DNA of 49,744 nucleotides from contig JAFGXR010000063.1 of the NCBI GenBank assembly GCA_016936555.1, positions 1 to 49,744 of the forward strand. Reading direction: 5' to 3'. Below are positions 490-30,915 of this stretch, piece after piece. The first letter of the stretch is position 1, and every line of letters begins with the position of its first letter. The notes below the pieces were generated by a model, which did no database searches, was not told where the DNA came from, and worked only from the letters and a program-made list of their open reading frames with translations. The stretch is from Spirochaetales bacterium (GTDB taxonomy: Bacteria > Spirochaetota > Spirochaetia > DSM-2461). The position numbers and the translations under genes were made by a program.

Positions 490-635
490 AAAAGATAATT
501 ACGGGGGAAGCGAAGCTTCAGGACCCGGAACTTATTCTGATAAAAAAGATAATTACGGGGGGCTGGTCGCAGAGAGATCTGCTGCTCGCCCATGCATCCC
601 AGGAAGCGAAGCTTCAGGACCCGGAACTTATTCTG
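490..635. repeat. Duplicated unit of about 50 bp, second copy interrupted
   Basis: A unit made of AAAAGATAATTACGGGG followed by a 34-bp block ending in GGAACTTATTCTG occurs at 490-539. It is repeated at 544-635. The 34-bp block (506-539 and 602-635) is identical in both copies. In the second copy the two halves are separated by exactly 42 bp, described as a separate element. The block contains a small palindrome (GAAGC-GAA-GCTTC). No coding potential is evident. Confidence 0.8.
561..602 (+). repeat. 42-bp palindromic element, copy 1
   Basis: These 42 bases sit between ACGGGG and GAAGCG in the second copy of the 490-635 duplication and are absent from the first copy, so the insertion boundaries are readable to within 1-2 bases. 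The element starts GGCTGGTCG, has a short hairpin (GCAGA-GAGA-TCTGC) and ends TGCTCGCCCATGCATCCCAG. The same architecture recurs at 28162-28203 and 30799-30840 with different hairpin arms but similar flanks. I know no named family that it matches. Confidence 0.75.
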
Positions 636-681: not shown

Positions 682-841
682 CCAACAGTGTAAAATTGTA
701 ATAAATGAAGAGAATATATAATCAGGAGTGTAAATCTATATAACATAACGATTTACAAAACTGAAAATAGCGAATGTGTCCAGTACGTAACCAACGGCTT
801 GTTGGCTTTCGGCTCTTTTCAAACTATAAAAAGGGGTCATT
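682..841. other. AT-rich non-coding gap before the integrase remnant
   Basis: No ORF with a start and ribosome site is seen. The only structure is a 7-bp inverted repeat, GTAAATC (730-736) and GATTTAC (750-756), separated by 13 bp. It could be an operator for the now-dead recombinase gene or for whatever transcript the terminator at 640-681 serves. Confidence 0.4.
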
Positions 842-1635
842 ATGAGATACAGAGAGCCTTTTACTATTTTTTCCGAGAAAAACAAAATCCGGTAAGTCTG
901 TTTACTATTATCGTACCTACGACCACTATATTAAACGGACTTCTGCTAAAAGTACAGGAAAAACATCAAAGGGCGCATCAAAAAAATACTACATGGATTT
1001 ATACGACAAAGGGGAGCTAGTCCCGTCTCAGTCGGAGCTGACATTTTCCCGGTTCGCGGAGAAATATCATTGGTGGACAAAGGATTGTGTTTACTCCGAA
1101 AACAAGCGCAAGAAATCCACCTCCAGGAATAGCGGGTCCGAAAGTATCAGAGAGCAAAACCTCGCTGTCCTCGAAAAAAATATCCTCCCGAAATTCGGCC
1201 AGGTAAAGCTGTCGTAGATTTCCCTGGTAATGATCGAAGAAAGTCAGATACAATCCCTCGATAACTACGCCGCGAACTCGATTCTTATCTGGACCCGAGT
1301 TTTATCTGCCATGCTAAAAGAGGCGTTCAACTGGGGACTGCTGAAAGAGAACCCCATGACCCGCGTCAGGAGCGTAGAAAAGACCTCAAAGGAAAAGGGA
1401 ACTTTTCCTCGATGAATATAAAAGATTGTTTGTGCACGATCTGTGGCGCTCTGATGTTGCATTTGTGGCAAACTACCTATCCGCTGTTACCGGAATGAGG
1501 ATCAGTGAGGATCTCGCTTTGCGCCCCTGTGTCGTGCATGATGGCTGGATCGACGCCATTTCTGACGAGGTGTTGATTGCCGTTGAAGAGCTTTTTGAAG
1601 TTCTGGAAAAGATTGGAGAAGGACTGAAGAGATAG
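842..1635 (+). pseudogene. Decayed tyrosine recombinase (phage-type integrase)
   Basis: Joined across frames, the reading has the layout of a tyrosine site-specific recombinase. An N-terminal segment (MRYREPFTIF) is followed by a SAM-like core-binding region (SIREQNLAVLEKNILPKFGQ) and the start of the catalytic domain with box I, AVTGMRISEDLALRP. The gene is clearly dead. One extra base near 893 breaks NKIR/SVYYYRTYD, an in-frame TAG lies at 1215-1217, and another frameshift near 1410 splits KEKGTF from DEYKRLF. Soon after box I the normal sequence stops, so the later His, Arg and Tyr catalytic residues are missing. It is the footprint of an old integration event. No attachment site or flanking tRNA gene is visible. 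Confidence 0.8.
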
Positions 1636-25507: not shown

Positions 25508-28150
25508 CTACCCTTCCAGGTCAGCCAGATGCTTTTTCATCTTCTCTATGGCGTCGGAAAACTCGGCGAGCTTTTCCTTCTCCTTGGCGATAACCTCTTC
25601 GGGCGCCCGGGACACGAAGCTCTCGTTTGAAAGTTTCTTCTCCGTGGCGATTCTGTTCTGTTCGGCTTTTACGATATTCTTCTTCAGCTTGTCGATTTCC
25701 TTCTCCACATCGATGGCGTCGCGGATAAATACAAAAGCCTCGAAGCCCTTTCCGACGGTTGCCACGGCCCCTTCGGGTGTAGCGGAACCGTCGAGGATCT
25801 CGAAGTCGTCTGACTTGACCAGCATGGCGATAACGTCGCTCTGGCTTTCCATAAAGGCTCTCTGATCGGCATCGACCTTGATCCTGACCCGGATTTTCTT
25901 CGCCGGTGGAATGGTGAACTCGGAACGGACCGTTCTGACAGCCTGTACGATATCCTTGAGAATATTGAAGGAAGCCTCTGCTTCACCATTGACCTTATCT
26001 TCGCTGTATTCGGGATATCTCTCCACGATTATGGCTTCGCCGGCGCCGGGTAGCTTCTGATAGATCTCCTCGGTCACGAAGGGAATGAAGGGATGGAGAA
26101 GCTTAAGAGACTCTTCCAGCACGGCGATCAGCATGGTGGCCGCTCTGTCTTTTTCAGCATCGTCATCGTCATAGAGATAGAGCTTGGAGGCTTCCACGTA
26201 CCAGTCGCAGAAATCATTCCAGAAATACTCGTAGACAGCATGGCCCATATCATCGAAGCGGTAGGCTTCCATGGCGGCGCCGATCGTTCTGGTCGTTTCG
26301 TTTATCCTGTGGAAGATCCACTGATCGATGGCCTTTTTCTCGATGGCATTTTTATCGAGCATGGTCCTCCCTTCGAGGTTCATAAGGATGTAACGCGAGG
26401 CGTTCCACACCTTGTTGCAGAATTTGGAACCGATTTTCACCGTCTCCATATCCATCAGGATATCCTGTCCCTGGGCCGAGAGATAGGCCAGCGTGAACTT
26501 CATGGCGTCGGAACCGTACTGATCGACCACATCGAGGGGGTCGATACCGTTGCCCAGGGATTTGGACATTTTCCGCCCCTGTTTGTCCCGGATCAGCTGG
26601 TGGATGTAGATATCCCGGAAGGGAACCTGTCCCGTGAACTCGAGCCCGGCCATGATCATTCTGGCGACCCAGAAGAAAATAATATCGTATGCCGTTACCA
26701 GAGACGTGGTGGGATAAAACTGCTCCAGATCGGGTGTTTTCTCCGGCCAGCCCAGAGTGGAAAACGGCCAGAGCCAGGAACTGAACCACGTATCCAGAAC
26801 ATCGTTGTCCTGCTTCAGGCTGGATGAGCTGCACTTGGGACAACCGGTTACCTCATCTTCGGAAACGATCATCTCACCGCAGTCCTGACAGTACCAGACG
26901 GGAATTCTGTGGCCCCACCAGAGCTGCCGGGAGATACACCAGTCGCGGATTCCCGTCAGCCAGTGCTTGTATGTGTTTTCCCATTTCTGGGGATAGAAGC
27001 GGATCTCCCCGTCTTCCCAGGCTTTCAGGGCCTTTTCGGCCAGAGGGGCCATGCGGACGAACCACTGCTCCGACATATAGGGTTCAACGACTGTTTTACA
27101 CCTGTAGCAGTGTCCCACCTGGTGGGGCTGCTCTTCATCATCCTTGTAGACTCCCGCTTCCTTCAGAGCTTCGATGGTCGCTTTGCGGGCTGTTTTCACA
27201 TCCATTCCGCGGAACTTTTCCGGAACGTTTTCGTTGAGCGTCGCATCGGGGTTGAGGATATTGATTCTCTCAAGGTCGTGCCTGTTTCCGATATCCCAGT
27301 CGTTGGGGTCGTGAGCGGGAGTGATTTTCACGGCGCCGGTACCGAATTCCATTTTACAGTAGGAGTCGGCGATGATGGGGATCTTTCTGTCAGTCAGCGG
27401 CAGGTCGACAGTCTTACCGATCAGGTGCCGGTATCTCTCATCTTCGGGGTGGACGGCGACCGCCGTATCTCCGAACATGGTTTCCGGTCTGGTCGTGGCG
27501 ATTTCGATCGATCCGCTTCCGTCGGTCAGGGGATATCTGTAGTGATAGAGCTTTCCGGCTTTCTCTTCGTGGTCCACTTCGTCGTCGGCCAGAGCCGTTC
27601 CGCAGGAGGGACACCAGTTGACCAGGTATTCCCCTTTGTAAATCAAATCTTTTTTATAGAGATCGACGAATACTTTCTTTACGGCGTTGGAGAGTCCGTC
27701 ATCGAGGGTGAACCGCTCGCGGGACCAGTCGCAGGATGCTCCGATTTTCTTCAGCTGATCGGTGATGATGGCGTGGTGGTTCTCTTTGACCTTCCATGTC
27801 TCCTCGATGAACTTCTCGCGGCCCAGATCGTGGCGGCCAAGCCCCTTTTCCTTGAGCTTTCTCTCAACGACATTCTGCGTGGCGATTCCCGCGTGGTCCG
27901 TACCGGGAACCCAGAGGGTCGGACGGCCCTGCATCCTGTTGTAGCGGATGAGAATATCCTGAAGGCTGTTGTTCAATCCGTGTCCCATATGAAGGACTCC
28001 GGTGACGTTGGGAGGGGGAATGACGATGGTGAAAGGTTCTTTTTCCTTATCACCCGCCGGTTTGAAATATCCCTTTTCCTCCCAGAATTTATATAATCTG
28101 TCTTCAAAATCTTTCGGATTGTAGGTTTTATCGAGTTCAACTGCTTTCAT
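25508..28150 (-). CDS. valS: Valyl-tRNA synthetase
   Basis: An 880-residue class I aminoacyl-tRNA synthetase that charges tRNA-Val. The HIGH-type motif lies in PPPNVTGVLHMGHGLNNS near residue 45. The editing (CP1) domain occupies about 160-400, with zinc-ribbon pairs CPSCG and CQDCGE...CPKC. KMSKS occurs as GRKMSKSLGNGIDPLDV near residue 545. A C-terminal coiled-coil arm follows from about 815. Length and order are normal. It is a single gene. No T-box leader is seen; the leader instead carries a 42-bp palindromic element that ends at the AAAGG ribosome site. Confidence 0.96.
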   Translation of the reverse strand: MKAVELDKTYNPKDFEDRLYKFWEEKGYFKPAGDKEKEPFTIVIPPPNVTGVLHMGHGLNNSLQDILIRYNRMQGRPTLWVPGTDHAGIATQNVVERKLKEKGLGRHDLGREKFIEETWKVKENHHAIITDQLKKIGASCDWSRERFTLDDGLSNAVKKVFVDLYKKDLIYKGEYLVNWCPSCGTALADDEVDHEEKAGKLYHYRYPLTDGSGSIEIATTRPETMFGDTAVAVHPEDERYRHLIGKTVDLPLTDRKIPIIADSYCKMEFGTGAVKITPAHDPNDWDIGNRHDLERINILNPDATLNENVPEKFRGMDVKTARKATIEALKEAGVYKDDEEQPHQVGHCYRCKTVVEPYMSEQWFVRMAPLAEKALKAWEDGEIRFYPQKWENTYKHWLTGIRDWCISRQLWWGHRIPVWYCQDCGEMIVSEDEVTGCPKCSSSSLKQDNDVLDTWFSSWLWPFSTLGWPEKTPDLEQFYPTTSLVTAYDIIFFWVARMIMAGLEFTGQVPFRDIYIHQLIRDKQGRKMSKSLGNGIDPLDVVDQYGSDAMKFTLAYLSAQGQDILMDMETVKIGSKFCNKVWNASRYILMNLEGRTMLDKNAIEKKAIDQWIFHRINETTRTIGAAMEAYRFDDMGHAVYEYFWNDFCDWYVEASKLYLYDDDDAEKDRAATMLIAVLEESLKLLHPFIPFVTEEIYQKLPGAGEAIIVERYPEYSEDKVNGEAEASFNILKDIVQAVRTVRSEFTIPPAKKIRVRIKVDADQRAFMESQSDVIAMLVKSDDFEILDGSATPEGAVATVGKGFEAFVFIRDAIDVEKEIDKLKKNIVKAEQNRIATEKKLSNESFVSRAPEEVIAKEKEKLAEFSDAIEKMKKHLADLEG

Positions 28151-28161
28151 TAAAATATTCC

Positions 28162-28203
28162 TTTGGACGCAAAGGCGGGCAGGAAGCCCGCTTCCGACCA
28201 GCC
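28162..28203 (-). repeat. 42-bp palindromic element, copy 2, in the valS leader
   Basis: On the minus strand it starts GGCTGGTCG, with hairpin GGAAGC-GG-GCTTCC, then TGCCCGCC and TTTGCGTCCAAA. Flanks and length match the copies at 561-602 and 30799-30840, with different arm sequence. It lies between the likely valS promoter and start codon, so it is transcribed as a leader hairpin. Its last bases contribute the AAAGG ribosome-binding sequence. Confidence 0.7.
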
Positions 28204-28226
28204 TTAAGTAGTTCTATAAGAAATAG

Positions 28227-29634: not shown

Positions 29635-29666
29635 GCCATATTATTTTCAAATCCATTTCCCCAAAA

Positions 29667-29963
29667 TCAAGCCAGCTGTTTACTTTCCTCGATCATCTCT
29701 TTTCTCAACAGATCGTTCAAGAATGTCTGATACCCCTTCCCGTGGCTCTTGAGCCAGAGTAGAACATCCGCGTCGATCCGGGTTGTGATCTGCTCTTTCC
29801 TGGGCTTGAAAACCTTGTGGAAAGGAACTGCTCGGGAAAAGTCCTCATCAGACCATTCCTTAATATCCGAGGTATCTATTTCGGAGTCCGGGAGGTCGGC
29901 AAGTTTCGCAAGTCTTGCCTTTGTTTCTTCATCCATTGGGCTAAAACCATTTTCCCGCTTCAT
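29667..29963 (-). CDS. brnA: BrnA-type antitoxin
   Basis: A 98-residue antitoxin. The C-terminal half has the ribbon-helix-helix-like DNA-binding region (KEQITTRIDADVLLWLKSHG, then YQTFLNDLLRKEM) typical of BrnA. The N-terminal half (residues 1-50, acidic, SDIKEWSDEDFSRAV) is the toxin-binding part. It overlaps the brnT end by 23 bp, toxin gene first, the usual order. BrnA dimers normally repress the operon together with BrnT. Confidence 0.9.
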   Translation of the reverse strand: MKRENGFSPMDEETKARLAKLADLPDSEIDTSDIKEWSDEDFSRAVPFHKVFKPRKEQITTRIDADVLLWLKSHGKGYQTFLNDLLRKEMIEESKQLA

Positions 29964-30228
29964 ACTTCCTCCTCTCTGCCGTTGTCGCTTTTCGGGCAGA
30001 TATTATTCTGAAAACTTCTTCATCCTGCTGATCCCTCATGGTGTAGACCACAAGCACCAGCAGGATACCGCCAATATGTCCCATGATCTGATGCCGGAGC
30101 TCTGAATCCGTGTAATCGTCACGAATCAGGGCAAACGGGTCAGCAAACACATATTTGGCGTCTTTGAATGACAATCCGTGCTTCTTCTGGTTGATTCTGT
30201 CCTTTTCTTCATCCCATTCAAAGGTCAT
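29941..30228 (-). CDS. brnT: BrnT-type ribonuclease toxin
   Basis: A 95-residue toxin of the BrnT family (RelE-fold ribonuclease). It opens with MTFEWDEEKDRINQKKHGLS, has FADPFALIRDD and ends with VFRIISARKATTAERRKYE, all conserved blocks including the Arg and Lys residues expected at the active site. The module looks intact. There is no Shine-Dalgarno: a perfect TATAAT (30235-30240) lies six bases before the ATG, so the start codon coincides with the expected transcription start. Confidence 0.9.
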   Translation of the reverse strand: MTFEWDEEKDRINQKKHGLSFKDAKYVFADPFALIRDDYTDSELRHQIMGHIGGILLVLVVYTMRDQQDEEVFRIISARKATTAERRKYEAGKWF

Positions 30229-30234
30229 AATATA

Positions 30235-30267
30235 ATTATACTATTGTAACTACATTTTTGCAATTAC
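30235..30267 (-). promoter_or_regulatory. brnTA promoter with partial palindrome
   Basis: TTGCAA (30258-30263), a 17-bp spacer and TATAAT (30235-30240) on the minus strand. A loose inverted repeat (GTAACTACA...TTGCAATTAC, 30246-30267) covers the -35 region and spacer and could be the BrnA operator. Confidence 0.55.
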
Positions 30268-30312: not shown

Positions 30313-30915
30313 CTAAAGGGAAGGATTCATCAACGGCTCCGTATTTTCTAATTCATAAATCGCAACACAGTACGGACATAACACACTTGAAACAGAAAGG
30401 TCTTTCTGAGATGAAAAGCATCCTTCTTTATGGAGTAAACCTGAAGCTCCAAAAGTTACTTCGTTACCCCACCCTTGCATGACATATTGATAATCCTGAT
30501 AGCTTCTGATAGCCATAAGCCCCGTCGGGTCAGTGTACCGCAACGGATTATTCGCCACATAACTAAACCAGTTTAGGCCGTCTTTTACAGGATCTTCTGT
30601 GATAAATCTACCAAGCTGGGGATCATACCATCTGGCATTGAAGTAATACAGCCCTGTATGAGAATCAATCTTCTTGCCCGTGTAGAACCCGTCACGCTCG
30701 ACGAATCCCGAAGCCCCGGTCTCTTCCCCAAACGGCGTGAAATCATTCTGCCAGAGGATGTTACCCTCGACATCGGTCATTAGAACCGTGGAACCGAGCC
30801 TGGTCGGAAGCAAGCTTCCTGCTCGGCCATGCAACCGGGGATGGTCTGTGAGGTAGAAATACAATGAGAAAGTGTCTGCAGAATCAATCAATTTGTTATT
30901 TTCTCTCAATATCAT
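30313..30915 (-). CDS. Orphan Rhs C-terminal fragment with variable tip
   Basis: A 200-residue remnant of an Rhs/YD-repeat protein (normally more than 1000 residues). Residues about 20-133 are the end of the Rhs core: YFYLTDH...LGSTVLMTD, GLYYFNARWYDPQLGRFITE, and DPTG at the usual boundary. The last 67 residues, from LMAIRSYQDYQYVMQGWG to the end with CPYC, are a variable tip of unknown activity. In full Rhs proteins this tip is a toxin. The DHLGS motif is split by 14 extra residues (26-39), exactly the length of the 42-bp element inserted there. There is no signal or shell region, so it is probably a silent or orphan cassette. No clear immunity gene was found. Confidence 0.75.
   Translation of the reverse strand: MILRENNKLIDSADTFSLYFYLTDHPRLHGRAGSLLPTRLGSTVLMTDVEGNILWQNDFTPFGEETGASGFVERDGFYTGKKIDSHTGLYYFNARWYDPQLGRFITEDPVKDGLNWFSYVANNPLRYTDPTGLMAIRSYQDYQYVMQGWGNEVTFGASGLLHKEGCFSSQKDLSVSSVLCPYCVAIYELENTEPLMNPSL
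30799..30840 (+). repeat. 42-bp palindromic element, copy 3, in frame inside the Rhs core
   Basis: On the plus strand it reads CCTGGTCG, hairpin GGAAGC-AA-GCTTCC, then TGCTCGGCCATGCAACCGGG and a final G. Removing these 42 bases restores a canonical D-H-L-G-S-T in the Rhs core. The insert adds PRLHGRAGSLLPTR in frame. Flanks match the other two copies; the hairpin arms differ. Confidence 0.75.

Follow-up and report, generated by a model that had tools for sequence, protein, structure and literature searches.

A 42-base hairpin repeat, present three times in the window (the whole 49,744-nucleotide stretch analysed here, contig JAFGXR010000063.1 of a Spirochaetales genome), inserts at exact sites, commonly at ribosome-binding sites or, within genes, in frame, and its mobility is demonstrated by comparison of related sequences. 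Orthologous empty sites, nested and in-frame insertions, dispersal, the lack of a gene of its own and the lack of an Rfam match all agree with the unnamed, non-autonomous mobile palindrome proposed in an earlier note on this DNA. The evidence is comparative, and neither an excised circle nor live transposition has been observed. The unit is best read as a new family of the REP-like kind that bears neither the GTAG nor the CGTC tag, and a literature search found no description of the 42-base element.

Copies in the window

The unit is ~42–50 bp long and reads 5′ to 3′ S-CTGGTCG-(variable stem)-CTGCTCG-S′CY-ATGCRNCC-N(1–2)-RG. The three window copies and the empty counterpart of the first are listed with scores from R1, a covariance model derived from 25 copies and applied at E ≤ 0.01; the guide is the set of guide-like bases 3′ of the hairpin.

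490..540 (+): empty site for copy 1, an uninterrupted host repeat reading ..ATTACGGGGGAAGCGAAGCTTCAGGACCCGGAACTTATTCTG; paralogous
562..603 (+): mobile palindrome copy 1, 42 bp; stem CAGA/TCTG, guide CCC; R1 60.1 bits, E 2.8e-12
28161..28202 (−): copy 2, exact 42-bp insertion in the valS Shine-Dalgarno sequence; guide CCT, right end AAAGG; R1 59.2 bits
30799..30840 (+): copy 3, within an rhs/YD-repeat-like gene; GC-type foot, guide GCC; R1 61.3 bits

Copy 1 lies in the second of two tandem units of a host palindromic repeat. As the earlier note had described, ~543–635 corresponds to the ~490–540 repeat plus 42 additional bases at ACGGGG|GAAGCG. Because of a run of G, placements at 560–601, 561–602 and 562–603 are all equivalent on sequence grounds, and the exact ends are uncertain by 1–2 bases at paralogous sites (copy 1 and L015). 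Intact host-type repeats, CGGGGGA-hairpin-GGACCCGAA, are also present elsewhere in the window's genome. A third repeat type, CGGGGGA-hairpin-TCnGGACCCGAA with spacer ATAGTCGAnAAATAAAGATATTT, is found in tandem at window 490–635 and at L010, L012, L015 and L195; it hosts the 42-bp unit repeatedly, always at CGGGG|GA. Just 3′ of the repeat bearing copy 1, window 840–1500 has the look of a phage-integrase-like frame that is seemingly broken.

Comparison of valS loci allows equivalent placements of copy 2 within 28160–28205, with the valS start codon at 28150 on the minus strand. Copy 3 constitutes 14 in-frame codons (PRLHGRAGSLLPTR, minus strand) between LTDH and LGST, and the minus-strand translation is open through the insert. 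Both recurrences reported earlier, at 28162–28203 (minus strand) and 30799–30840, are real. Two small minus-strand frames between copies 2 and 3 (29640–30240) look like a BrnT/BrnA-type toxin-antitoxin pair.

Unit structure and covariation

Three parts make up the hairpin: a distal stem that varies, a module that is fixed (T.C mismatch, G.T, G-C, T.G and C.T mismatch) and a 3-bp foot. The case for it rests on covariation because its folding energy alone is unremarkable (DNA z-scores of ~0.4 for two of the three window copies, which is uninformative). The covariation score for 107 distinct copies is 0.420 compared with 0.126 for shuffled data, and none of 500 shuffles reaches the observed value. 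Eight of the 13 stem pairs are altered on both sides in 25 sequences and nine of 13 in the 107, and pairing drops from 91% to 33–58% when the partner is slid by 1–3 columns. Both wobble pairs are kept as wobbles in 102 of 107 copies, from which we infer recognition of an irregular strand. The earlier observation that arms vary while pairing is kept holds between loci, where arms differ and pairs covary, but not within a tandem array, where the arms are identical or nearly so. A compensated stem change, GCAAAC/GTTTGC versus GTAAAC/GTTTAC, distinguishes L164 from L232, whose units occupy orthologous positions immediately 5′ of a tRNA-Met-like gene.

Empty sites and nested insertions

The valS leader of the window's genome (G000) reads TATAGAACTACTTAAGG[CTGGTCG...CCAAAGG]AATATTTTA-ATG, whereas that of the same-genus genome G003 (L202) reads TATAGAACTACTTAAGG-AACATTAA-ATG, with an identical left flank and no insert. 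The site is empty in G001 and G002 too, and the insert was therefore gained in the window's lineage. A different, independent unit lies upstream of valS in G007, and G012 and G016, of the same genus as G007, have no insert there. The IS91-type transposase genes of G019, G023 and G024 contain exact 42-bp inserts at differing positions when compared with an uninterrupted relative (L293). Units at L097 and L111 lie inside a near-perfect host palindrome, which also shows the empty state GGCAGG|TCGCGACCTGCC, and at L231 a second palindrome is inserted in a unit with another unit inserted in that palindrome. Unrelated insert lengths in relatives, which would have spoken against the earlier interpretation, were not encountered.

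The second palindrome, GTCGTACCGCAG-stem-GAGGAACGATC, is of similar size and is found at L009, L023, L115, L121, L131, L231 and L291:1519–1560. It too interrupts an IS91-type gene by exactly 42 bp, and nesting with the first palindrome is frequent. IS91-type Y2 genes (L191, L257, L289, L290 and L291) hold 42-bp inserts far beyond their genome share, either as neutral landing sites or as a consequence of their single-stranded replication.

Copy number, distribution and arrays

A simple pattern matches 34 places in the window's genome versus seven for a reversed control. R1 identifies 33–34 places there, including the three window copies at 59–61 bits (E ~1e-12); this is far above chance, so that the genome search proposed in the earlier note did not return the chance-level outcome that would have refuted it. 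An exact-pattern scan of public genomes, one per species, yields at least 116 stretches, mostly in Spirochaetota and Bacillota. Spirochaetota MAGs, many Clostridia, and Paenibacillus and Cohnella isolates are among the matches listed, and at least two matches (L076 and L135), both in coding sequence, are probably due to chance. The unit is present in 20 of the 26 genomes of the window's own family and in seven of 35 other relatives. Copy numbers are highest in G067 (137), G082 (73) and G075 (68), and the three other genomes of the window's genus (G001–G003) have 13–33 copies each. Many of the genomes examined are incomplete MAGs, and the copies are not fully independent of one another.

Many genomes hold units in head-to-tail arrays, an example being the two-unit array (L114) of a complete Paenibacillus chromosome. 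An array on contig C39 of G061 has five units with a 42-bp period, and in the window's genome five contigs (C40, C45, C47, C89 and C129) terminate in head-to-tail arrays. One orthologous array has three units with stem taatc/gatta in G000 and two units with taacc/ggtta in G002; the double change is present in every unit, which points to array homogenisation or re-amplification.

Ends, guide and target

Insertion is directly after an RG-type motif, often a Shine-Dalgarno sequence. Pairing between the left flank and the unit is confined to three positions (−1:+1, z 12.6; −2:+2, z 11.3; −3:+3, z 5.9), with nothing comparable from −4 outward; position −1 is inferred to belong to the unit from the conserved LTDHLGST motif at the rhs site. 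At the right end, parsed by rule as the first RG after RNCC, the RG is complementary to the CY 3′ of the hairpin, also in copies with a mismatching left flank. The match between right end and guide is strong when pooled (Fisher 1.6e-16) and with guides shuffled within genomes only (p = 2e-4). Of the 36 copies with a left flank that mismatches the guide, 31 have a right end in accord with the guide and five a right end in accord with the left base.

The right end thus belongs to the element, and joining of the unit's two ends is needed for the full foot to close. A target-site duplication is excluded by these 31 of 36 informative copies; the earlier statement limiting any duplication to one or two bases was essentially right, the similar right-end bases being the element's own. 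The classical MITE criterion (terminal inverted repeats plus target-site duplication) is unmet, with empty sites lacking any duplication beyond a shared GG. We infer that the complementarity of end and guide reflects an intermediate that is circular or head-to-tail, although the excised circle itself has not been seen.

Agreement of the guide with the target, as represented by the left flank, is found in pooled counts only (Fisher 6e-4) and is not significant within genomes (p = 0.13). Choice of target by the guide is not claimed.

Start codons and the possibility of a cis-acting RNA

A start codon lies just downstream in the sense orientation for 55 of 156 usable copies, compared with 20 in antisense and 18 at 100 nt further down. 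The corresponding numbers for the spirochaete subset are 34 of 77 versus nine and seven. Enrichment at Shine-Dalgarno sequences follows from RG being the target, but it could also be taken to mean that the unit is not mobile and is instead a cis-acting RNA, either riboswitch-like or a translational control element. The covariation, the compensatory changes between orthologous copies and the presence of the unit at two successive copA-operon genes would all suit such a role. It is hard to reconcile, however, with insertions into either strand of coding sequences and inside other palindromes, with the great diversity of the downstream genes, and with homogeneous arrays and clean empty sites, and we regard it as very unlikely. 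Copies inside open frames are nine sense and 11 antisense (a few being chance matches); this absence of strand bias speaks for a DNA-level and against an RNA-level insertion. No Rfam family matches at its gathering score, and none of three sub-threshold matches in a lax search is meaningful.

Insertion of a mobile DNA element remains the preferred reading, and individual copies may have been co-opted for regulation. Units precede copA in three members of the genus. At the copA/copZ junction of G001 (L188:1450–1494) a unit is in frame, apparently fusing both genes into one open frame.

The search for a mover

The mover is unidentified: Y1 transposases are absent from many carriers, Y2 and IS110 transposases are not general, and these absences recur despite the incompleteness of the MAGs. 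The earlier note had suggested a RAYT- or Y1-type partner. Movement as a REP element by a RAYT/TnpA_REP (Y1) transposase would agree with the size, the imperfect hairpin, the missing target duplication and the high copy number, all of which are REP-like, and a Y1 gene scores above cut-off in 11 of the 22 carrier genomes tested. However, the Y1 family PF01797 has no match in G000–G003, G005–G007, G018, G020, G066, G067 (137 copies), G068 or G075 (68 copies), and its absence from the window's genome and all three same-genus genomes, with 13–33 copies each, leaves the suggested partner unsupported. In addition, the unit lacks a GTAG/GTGG tag, and the RAYT gene at L036—the only RAYT locus read—has a different inverted repeat on either side. 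This explanation is largely refuted and retains little credibility.

An IS91-type Y2 rolling-circle transposase would account for the head-to-tail arrays. All 10 Y2-positive genomes of the family have at least three units and several Y2 genes contain units, but there is no Y2 match in nine carriers with 13–137 copies each (G000, G001, G002, G061, G065, G066, G067, G068 and G071). The units are inserts within the Y2 genes, not at element ends, and the uninterrupted Y2 gene at L293 has no unit nearby. This candidate first seemed promising, with units on the same contigs, and was dropped because units interrupt Y2 genes and several high-copy genomes lack Y2; we now consider it unlikely. An IS110 mover was also rejected as not general, since it is above cut-off in only seven of 26 family genomes. 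Clusters of recurrent neighbouring genes, judged by eye, look like ordinary families (transporters, response regulators and valS), the only transposase-like cluster being one RAYT pair.

It is also conceivable that no dedicated enzyme exists and that the unit spreads by replication or repair errors such as hairpin slippage, template switching or GG microhomology. The unit is indeed very short, there is GG microhomology at both junctions, and no enzyme has been found. Such errors would not readily give the same ends and a strand-specific target at independent sites, a core conserved across two phyla and matching of end and guide, and this account is distinctly improbable. Integron attC sites are folded, strand-asymmetric hairpins with conserved unpaired bases. 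The unit could similarly be a site for an integron- or Xer-like tyrosine recombinase acting on folded strands, its head-to-tail arrays being in keeping with this. As no attC core boxes are seen by eye, and the insertion sites are short RG motifs without a matching att site, we give this possibility scarcely any weight.

Proposed mechanism

The reading that we prefer, and to which we assign roughly even chances, is that of a non-autonomous mobile palindrome of ~42–50 bp moved as a folded single strand by an unidentified enzyme acting in trans. One strand would fold, for example on the lagging-strand template, and an unidentified nuclease or strand transferase would recognise the mismatched core. 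Cleavage would follow the unit's own RG, and the two ends of the unit would be joined into a circle or multimer, closing the RG...CY foot; the joined unit would then enter a single-stranded DNA target behind a similar RG. The enzyme would be neither a Pfam-recognisable Y1 nor, generally, a Y2 transposase. Because the unit's own 3′ end best matches its own foot, repeated insertion at that end would build arrays, and because the unit ends in RG, insertion into AAGGAG would rebuild the Shine-Dalgarno sequence. Support for a single-stranded, end-joined intermediate is only indirect, consisting of the end/guide complementarity and the arrays.

Comparison with known systems

The Rickettsia palindromic elements such as RPE-1 (PMC10969869) resemble the unit in making in-frame insertions in unrelated genes without a known mover, but RPE-1 is ~150 bp, is described from Rickettsia and differs in sequence as far as described. 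Among described orphan classes the nearest is the CGTC REP superfamily, to which Rickettsia RPE-4/RPE-6 and neisserial dRS3 belong (PMC3733652). These are also short palindromes of several phyla including Spirochaetes, with copies within genes and no dedicated transposase found. They are characterised by a terminal CGTC/TGTC/CCTC tag, an 8–9 bp stem, a 4–5 nt loop and a CCA-like tail, and are mostly HH dimers (PMC3733652). Copies compared by eye with this description, and not base by base with a consensus, do not meet these criteria: the unit has no CGTC tag or CCA tail, has a conserved internal mismatch core, and forms head-to-tail arrays.

How orphan palindromes of these two kinds move remains open because no transposase adjoins them. 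The present family offers clean empty and filled pairs, defined ends, nested insertions and arrays, and among its carriers are strains of Paenibacillus and Cohnella that have been cultured and sequenced, such as Paenibacillus lycopersici, P. thalictri and Cohnella sp. SGD-V74, so that genetic approaches to the mover are feasible. By rebuilding a Shine-Dalgarno sequence or adding 14 codons in frame, a 42-bp insert is also a cheap means of changing leaders and proteins genome-wide.

The broad-sense REP criterion—an imperfect palindrome of 20–65 nt with many copies per genome—is met by the 42–50 nt length, up to 137 copies and covarying hairpin. The unit resembles the GTAG REPs and their RAYT/TnpA_REP (E. 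coli REP; PMC8266576, PMC6006769) in size, single-strand asymmetry, conserved stem mismatches and a guide-like motif beside the hairpin. It differs in that its guide-like bases are 3′ of the hairpin and many carriers lack Y1. Aligned copies have no GTAG/GTGG tag 5′ of the hairpin foot, the bases before CTGG being a variable xRG/RGS, and the opposite strand begins with the right end, GGNYGCAT. The criterion of a repeat-flanked RAYT (PF01797) gene is unmet in G000–G003 and other high-copy carriers.

With IS200/IS605 elements (IS608 and ISDra2) the unit shares a subterminal hairpin and the lack of target duplication, and its end and flank may likewise be set by complementarity to a short guide. 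Unlike them it has a single hairpin, no gene and a length of 42 bp, its guide is 3′ of the hairpin and only 2–3 nt long, and many hosts lack TnpA. Guide recognition of the IS200/IS605 (PATE-like) type is at most suggested: complementarity to the guide holds within genomes for the right end, and for the left flank only in pooled counts. The closest described logic is that of TnpA_REP and IS200/IS605, which need an irregular stem and in which guide bases assist in selecting the cleavage site (PMC8266576, PMC6006769). Lacking the tags of both REP superfamilies, the unit is filed as of the REP kind and a member of neither. We tentatively raise the possibility of a third superfamily of bacterial mobile palindromes, in Spirochaetota and Bacillota, with movement through a circular or multimeric end-joined single-stranded form, an enzyme outside the known Y1 and Y2 families, and an internal trinucleotide that would define the element's own end and bias its targets to Shine-Dalgarno sequences, which are then rebuilt.
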